Assembly (NCBI GenBank): GCA_018812525.1
Contig: JAHJDE010000045.1
Span: forward strand, 1 to 36,386
DNA from: Gammaproteobacteria bacterium
Lineage (GTDB): Bacteria > Pseudomonadota > Gammaproteobacteria > Chromatiales > Chromatiaceae
Direction of reading: 5' to 3'
DNA: 36,386 nt
The translations under genes were made by a program, and so were the position numbers. Shown piece by piece: positions 298-478 of this stretch (position 1 is its first letter; the number at the start of each line of letters is the position of its first letter). The notes below the pieces were generated by a model. The model made no database searches, had not been told where the DNA came from, and saw only the letters and a list, made by a program, of their open reading frames with translations.

Positions 298-374
298 TGG
301 CGCGCCCGAAGGGATTCGAACCCCTGACCTCTGCCTCCGGAGGGCAGCGCTCTATCCAGCTGAGCTACGGGCGC
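298..374 (-). tRNA. tRNA-Arg (anticodon CCG)
   Basis: The minus strand folds as a full cloverleaf. The 7-bp acceptor is GCGCCCG (368-374) with CGGGCGC (302-308). The D arm contains TAGCTCAGCTGGATAGAGC, the anticodon loop is CTCCGGA with anticodon CCG, and the T arm carries the GGTTCGAATCC-type sequence. The discriminator is G, and the CCA end (298-300) is encoded in the DNA. It decodes CGG arginine codons. Confidence 0.96.
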
Positions 375-382
375 ATATTTGG

Positions 383-388
383 ATTGTA
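383..388 (-). promoter_or_regulatory. Probable -10 element of tRNA-Arg
   Basis: On the minus strand TACAAT lies nine bases before the first tRNA base, the right distance for a -10 hexamer. No good -35 hexamer is visible 16-18 bases further upstream, so the call rests on position and the 5/6 match to TATAAT. Confidence 0.45.
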
Positions 389-438
389 TCGTGTTTTTGA
401 ACTTTAGCCTTCGTGCCCGTTTTCCCTGTGAACGTTAG

Positions 439-478
439 CTCCGGAGGGCTGCGCTCTATCCAGCTGAGCTAAGGGCGC
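439..478 (-). pseudogene. Partial duplicate of the 5' half of tRNA-Arg(CCG)
   Basis: Forty bases match tRNA-Arg positions 335-374 at 38 of 40 sites. The copy covers the acceptor 5' strand, the D arm and the anticodon stem-loop up to the anticodon CCG. Identity stops abruptly in the anticodon loop, where the sequence becomes AACGTTAG. The copy lies 64 bp upstream of the intact tRNA in the same orientation. Without the 3' half it cannot make a tRNA. It is either a footprint of integrase-mediated insertion at the tRNA or a decayed tandem copy. A perfect 6-bp hairpin (481-495, GAGATG/CATCTC) adjoins it. Confidence 0.85.

Follow-up and report, generated by a model that had tools for sequence, protein, structure and literature searches.

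The locus at the beginning of the window, the 36,386-nucleotide stretch of Chromatiaceae DNA (genome G000) analysed here, is very probably, at roughly 0.88 in our estimation, an end of an integrative island, now decayed, which entered the anticodon loop of the host tRNA-Arg(CCG) gene by site-specific recombination. Judged from sequence comparison, the native gene is split, with its 5' half in the window and its 3' half on another contig of the same genome (C28), the two sharing a 9-bp core, and the intact tRNA-Arg(CCG) of the window is foreign and lies within the inserted DNA.

Two tRNA-Arg(CCG) sequences lie close together here on the minus strand. The intact one, which is the substitute carried by the island, occupies positions 298 to 374 (ARAGORN; Infernal score of 67.9 bits), while the native 5' half occupies positions 439 to 478, in its ancestral place beside genes for cytochrome c and a Rep-type helicase. 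Positions 335-374 and 439-478 are identical at 38 of 40 positions, a resemblance between neighbouring 40-mers for which chance is ruled out. The half breaks off within the anticodon loop, where it is joined to AACGTTAG (431-438), and the comparison of junctions places in this loop the 9-bp core common to both of them, CTCCGGAGG (439-447). The sequence-only reading had recognized the intact gene, the 38/40 repeat of its 5' half upstream and the end of this repeat in the anticodon loop, all of which hold, but it took the 40-mer for a copy of the intact tRNA; the 40-mer is instead a piece of the native gene, identical to that of a sister genome at 40 of 40 positions, and it is the intact tRNA that came in later. 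The same reading had noted CGTTAGC twice near 192-227, and GTTAGC is indeed found on the plus strand at 193-198 and 222-227, as well as at 434-439, and on the minus strand at 177-182. Over the whole window this motif is not enriched (6 occurrences seen vs 7.9 expected), and four of the six fall within 263 bp at the tRNA locus.

The assignment of the native and the foreign gene is based on G001, the one other genome of the same genus in the relative set. Its locus keeps the order helicase, cytochrome c, tRNA-Arg(CCG) with a single intact tRNA, and hence represents the empty site. Window positions 439-478 match the 5' half of the G001 gene (L010:2152-2191) at 40 of 40 positions, as against 70 of 77 (7 differences) for the intact tRNA of the window, which is identical at 77 of 77 positions to the tRNA-Arg(CCG) of G013 and to that of G048. 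Helicase and/or cytochrome c protein matches also flank tRNA-Arg(CCG) in 9 of the 16 other relative loci compared (L024 being left out), so the location is an old one, and this, together with the 40/40 vs 70/77 identities to G001, designates the half as native and the intact tRNA as the newcomer. Elsewhere, the sister species holds an array of 23 tRNA genes (G001:C27, L108 3132-6128), and no such cluster appears among the 39 tRNA matches of G000.

The second junction lies on contig C28 of G000, where the ortholog of the gene following the tRNA in G001 adjoins the native 3' half. This half ends in CTCCGGAGG, beyond which foreign DNA begins, while the DNA after the half is a flank of the G001 type, unlike the DNA after the substitute tRNA. 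The acceptor strands of the separated halves, GCGCCCT and AGGGCGC, pair mutually; those of the substitute are GCGCCCG and CGGGCGC. Compared with G001, the C28 half has 4 nt missing (GAGG in tRNA sense), and the two G000 halves joined in silico give no tRNA with a proper anticodon; with this deletion, excision would no longer regenerate the native tRNA. Besides the gene at 298-374, ARAGORN found no tRNA at either junction (C28 stretch L044 and window junction). The interior of the G000 island is unassembled and both contigs, C28 and C122, end in repeats, so the two are linked via the comparison with G001 and not by a joining contig. The C28 junction also holds a truncated version of the module of tyrosine integrase (PF12167), Xis and HTH genes seen in related islands: the integrase match (L044 210-338) comprises 43 residues and stops 23 nt before the core, and the Xis match is split across two frames. 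The sequence-only reading, which suggested that an island junction once existed in this neighbourhood and had left the unusual 5' half behind, is thus supported by both junctions, the empty site in G001 and the truncated integrase module.

The same design recurs in other public genomes. A pattern scan of genome_contigs, in which the 5' half of a tRNA-Arg(CCG) had to precede the start of another tRNA-Arg at a gap of 21-101 nt, yielded 43 loci, of which 35 show the split design and 8 are ordinary tandem pairs, namely intact Arg(CCG)-Arg(ACG) pairs from Caulobacter and Sphingomonas. In the 35 split loci the 5' half is cut at CTCCGRAG and followed by an arm of 42-71 nt and then by a tRNA-Arg(CCG), which ARAGORN reads in 34 of them, the remaining one being cut by the end of the stretch; the common break point and the range of spacings partly reflect the search, since the pattern fixed the 5' half to CTCCGRAG and the gap to 21-101 nt, and is blind to other layouts or isotypes. 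The taxa include Idiomarina, Aliidiomarina, Pseudidiomarina, Alkalimonas, Ectothiorhodospira, Wenzhouxiangella, Hydrocarboniphaga, Nevskia, Algiphilus, Panacagrimonas, Chromatiaceae, Rhodocyclaceae and a Rhodospirillales MAG. Among 369 genomes drawn evenly from the class of the window, the strict pattern occurs in 4, G000 included, and a reversed control pattern in none (0/369); each of the other three has a single tRNA-Arg(CCG) there. Two genomes of this draw, G249 and G297, agree in their contig positions with the gammaproteobacterial records G055 and G058, and the class sampled is accordingly taken to be Gammaproteobacteria.

Between the core and the intact tRNA lies the island arm, 64 nt long (375-438, minus strand), which was listed with the arms of the 35 split-type loci. 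Arm comparison reveals the site R1, CTAACGTTCA (429-438, minus strand), and, 31 bp from it, R2, CTAAAGTTCA (398-407, minus strand). When offsets of 12 to 44 are compared over 34 distinct arms, the first 11 nt of the arm best match the arm 31 bp further on, with a mean of 5.76 of 11 positions against 3.82 at the next-best offset; 19 of the 34 arms score at least 6 at offset 31, beyond which fewer arms are long enough. As predicted from their sequence, the R1 and R2 repeats are likely to be bound by the integrase. TACAAT at 383-388 (minus strand), picked out by eye, is a possible -10 element of a promoter belonging to the substitute tRNA itself; a promoter scan found no sigma-70-type site for this gene.

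Concerning the other side of the substitute tRNA, a further site, GCTAACGCTCA (217-227, minus strand), emerged from motif comparison, and a near-palindromic pair of sites, GGCTAACACTCATGATCGTTAGCC (176-199), lies at the same place in the island end of G061 (L125). This island end aligns with the window through the arm, the tRNA and the GGCTAACGNTCATGAGTGTTAGCC site, up to a MITE-like insertion described below, and the CGTTAGC repeats are hence accounted for as island-end sites. Sites downstream of the substitute tRNA reach p < 0.05 in both forward and inverted orientation solely in the window and L125; elsewhere a few loci do so in one orientation and most in none, and we do not claim that these sites are general. 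The region of the inverted pair (175-228) folds better than its shuffles (z -3.7, minus strand). A reading of the GTTAGC/GCTAAC pairs as integron attC sites is less favoured: they are better explained as island-end sites, since G061 has matching sites at the corresponding position of its island end and the motif recurs in the arm by the core. A transposon with a 9-bp target duplication was discarded, given that the island ends, inspected by eye, do not resemble inverted repeats and that the arm has a repeat spaced by 31 bp.

As regards the integrase, 10 of the 35 split-type stretches retrieved contain Xis or integrase matches, as does C28; these stretches are short, so that a miss does not mean absence. 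Integrase matches of at least 399 residues occur in 7 of the 35, and Xis or integrase matches are likewise present in longer stretches taken from G058, G064 and G071. Pfam assigns the L147 integrase to PF12167 and PF00589, and the C28 piece to PF12167. The L125 integrase match stops at residue 41 and that of C28 at residue 43, with different sequence beyond each. An attachment site inside the integrase gene, of the SSV type, was considered and rejected: the C28 frame, read by eye, would meet a stop a few codons past the core, and 7 of the 35 stretches have an integrase match of at least 399 residues with the island in its integrated state. Integrases matching this family (E <= 1e-80) are found in 12 of the 369 class genomes, and at 8 of the 13 integrase loci a different tRNA (Arg(ACG), Met or Val(GAC)) lies no more than 1.5 kb away, with no half copy nearby; an integrase of this family is therefore not in itself a sign of splitting. 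In an integrase tree of 21 rows (L192 being left out, and some rows having uncorrected N-terminal extensions), the integrases of split-type loci make up three supported groups, set among the others; the label 'conv' in this tree denotes that no split tRNA-Arg(CCG) was seen, and L193 was called split because the pattern lies about 58 kb off on the same contig. At L055 (430-451), roughly the first 22 bases of a tRNA-Ser(GCT) recur upstream of the intact gene, close to an integrase of this family.

To follow both island ends in relatives, the second half was sought in the genomes of 20 of the 35 split loci, and 8 candidates among the matches listed were examined. The core is present in six of them (G055, G058, G071, G067, G062 and G068), and the candidates of G057 and G064 are weak matches without it. 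The two halves lie on one contig in G055 (8.0 kb apart), G058 (36.9 kb), G071 (43.2 kb) and G067 (about 161 kb), and on different contigs in G062 and G068. In all six core-bearing relatives, unlike in G000, the joined halves give a tRNA-Arg(CCG) (75 nt in G055); the shared core, of 9 bp in G000, measures 9-19 bp in these relatives, three of which have 18-19 bp. In G071, G068 and G055 the acceptor strands of the two halves are complementary, and the stem that they form differs from that of the island tRNA. None of 21 further Arg-like tRNAs, taken from 20 next-best-match regions in 10 of these genomes, has the CCG anticodon.

At L119 (about 5526-5859), two successive tRNA-Arg(CCG) 5' halves precede one intact tRNA, an arrangement of stacked insertions. 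In G058 (L158 17650-18300) and G057 (L156 10850-11000) the sequence that follows the 3' half is a close repeat of the one that follows the intact tRNA, pointing, at the sequence level, to either stacking or capture of the tRNA together with its flank. What follows the 3' half in G062 and G064 resembles the end of Idiomarina islands. As this DNA resembles an island end, the gene split in G057, G058, G062 and G064 may itself be island-borne and not native.

Cargo was analyzed in three islands of relatives (G055, G057 and G058), with 37 ORFs scanned. The G057 island carries HsdM-, HsdS- and HsdR-type restriction genes, the G058 island HsdM- and HsdR-like genes along with SEFIR/TIR, Schlafen-AlbA and nSTAND3 proteins, and the G055 island an MqsA-type antitoxin. 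For these 37 ORFs, no structural phage family appears by name in the best 25 of 30 PHROGs families, most of which are unnamed. Phage integrases are 28-30% identical among the 10 matches listed, and all 967 matching records lie below 60%. A phage origin was also rejected by two pattern scans of viral_contigs, which yielded one locus, with tRNA-Arg(ACG), that is a chance match.

These data bear on three other explanations of the window locus. The one we regard as quite unlikely is an ordinary tRNA-targeting island whose attP rebuilt the tRNA at one junction, the locus being later rearranged or stacked. It would fit the related integrases that sit next to different intact tRNAs with no half copy nearby, and also the sequence repeated at the ends in G057 and G058, which extends past the tRNA 3' end; however, no rebuilt tRNA is found at either G000 junction, the intact tRNA, which lies 64 bp inward of the junction, possesses a complete 5' half of its own, and the G001-type flank after the C28 half does not match what follows the substitute. 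A chromosomal rearrangement that broke the tRNA in the absence of any single island, the foreign tRNA having come separately, is very unlikely. The position of the G000 halves on different contigs would agree with it, but in G055, G058 and G071 the halves share one contig at distances of 8.0-43.2 kb, an integrase module lies at the C28 junction, and G000 and G061 have the island-end sequence in common.

The third explanation, a tandem tRNA-Arg(CCG) pair in which an ordinary deletion removed the 3' half of the upstream copy, we find scarcely credible. Tandem Arg tRNA pairs do exist, as the 8 of 43 pattern matches in Caulobacter and Sphingomonas demonstrate, yet the missing native-type 3' half is present on C28 beside the other native flank, and G001 has a single gene. 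The sequence-only reading had named a tandem tRNA-Arg pair conserved in relatives as the observation that would speak against an island; no such pair was found in 54 other genomes, 42 of them with any match and with at most 9 candidates scored per genome, where matches on the same contig are always at least 2.7 kb apart.

By standard decoding rules, CGG codons need a CCG tRNA. The gene at 298-374 is the sole CCG one among the 39 tRNAs of G000, whose anticodons were all read and four of which are Arg tRNAs (ACG, TCT, CCT and CCG); the list is incomplete, since it contains neither tRNA-Trp nor tRNA-Ile(GAT), and a second tRNA-Arg(CCG) could still lie in unassembled G000 DNA. In the mechanism that we propose, a tyrosine integrase of the PF12167 type would have recombined at the CTCCGRAGG core via the arm repeats. 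Once the island had inserted, the cell would survive thanks to the carried tRNA, the only remaining decoder of CGG codons, and any loss of the island other than by clean excision would presumably be lethal, as would loss of the carried tRNA itself. With the 4-nt deletion in the native 3' half and the truncated integrase, the substitution would have become permanent in G000.

More broadly, we consider it reasonably likely, with less assurance than for the window locus itself, that there is an island family, distributed across numerous gammaproteobacterial genera and some neighbouring taxa and lacking recognised structural genes of phages, which destroys the host tRNA-Arg(CCG) and supplies a replacement. 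The island end could then not be lost, decay of the native halves would make the swap irreversible, and the substitute tRNA would offer a fresh target for the next island, which leads to stacking. The window locus looks like a worn member of this family, holding its place through an essential tRNA. If this is true, tRNA-dependent integration extends from phages to islands with restriction and TIR-type genes, a route exists for swapping an essential tRNA gene for a foreign one, and the persistence of the islands is simply explained by their holding an essential gene.

The mechanism works, by analogy, like the published tRNA-dependent lysogeny, in islands that are nevertheless not phage-like. 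In the parts of the account compared here, tRNA-dependent lysogeny is described for temperate phages, mainly of Actinobacteria, with a common core of 8-17 bp (Guerrero-Bustamante & Hatfull 2024, PMC10865867). The likeness to that description (PMC10865867) comprises attachment inside a host tRNA gene, with G000 split in the anticodon loop and the G001 site empty, a short core (9 bp in G000), no functional tRNA rebuilt at the G000 junctions, and an element carrying a tRNA of the same isotype, here at 298-374. Unlike the phages covered in those parts (PMC10865867), the present islands occur mostly in Gammaproteobacteria, with a few beta- and alphaproteobacterial records; the three examined do not classify as phages and carry restriction, TIR or antitoxin cargo; the tRNA lies 42-71 nt from the core and is of one isotype, with stacked insertion; and the native half is decayed in G000. 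Cited in the same parts is prophage Lj965 of Lactobacillus johnsonii, whose junction tRNA is not rebuilt and whose cognate tRNA is carried by the prophage (PMC10865867); unlike the G000 island, it is a prophage, and from another phylum.

Phage-related sequences of Sinorhizobium meliloti inactivate the host tRNA-Leu(UAG), whose replacement is nearer to the tRNA of another genus (PMC11476347); the host tRNA is, as here, inactivated by insertion and then replaced, but the case is phage-related, concerns another isotype and displays no conserved arm structure in the part of the article compared. With conventional tRNA-targeting islands, as outlined in the compared sections of the Islander paper (PMC4383910), the G000 island shares a tRNA target, a displaced fragment and, probably, a tyrosine integrase; those islands restore the target gene from island sequence, whereas neither G000 junction does. 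In Caldiarchaeum, a tRNA-Thr 5' fragment accompanies an intact tRNA, with a likely mobile recombinase-coding element between them (PMC3293823); the case is archaeal, involves introns and was proposed, in the sections compared, as a model for how introns are gained and tRNAs become split. In the literature searched, mainly outside subscription journals and represented by parts of the articles, no prior description of such tRNA-Arg(CCG)-replacing islands was found.

A final point concerns the repeats with which the contig begins. Positions 140-168 belong to a MITE-like repeat with the ends CAGACCTCCC / GGGAGGTCTG, of which they form the right end; it lies as an insertion within the island and is also found at G000:C175:166375 and C96:1228. 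Positions 1-139, where the contig breaks, are the end of a multi-copy element that is DruA-like (PF14236, the Pfam match being that of the homologous G003 reading frame), DruA being a Druantia defence protein family. Further copies lie on contigs C44, C54, C55, C126, C127, C176 and C177 of G000, with GGCCGAATATTTAC as the common end and differing flanks; the element looks like an insertion sequence, and the MITE-like repeat of the window is apparently interrupted by it.
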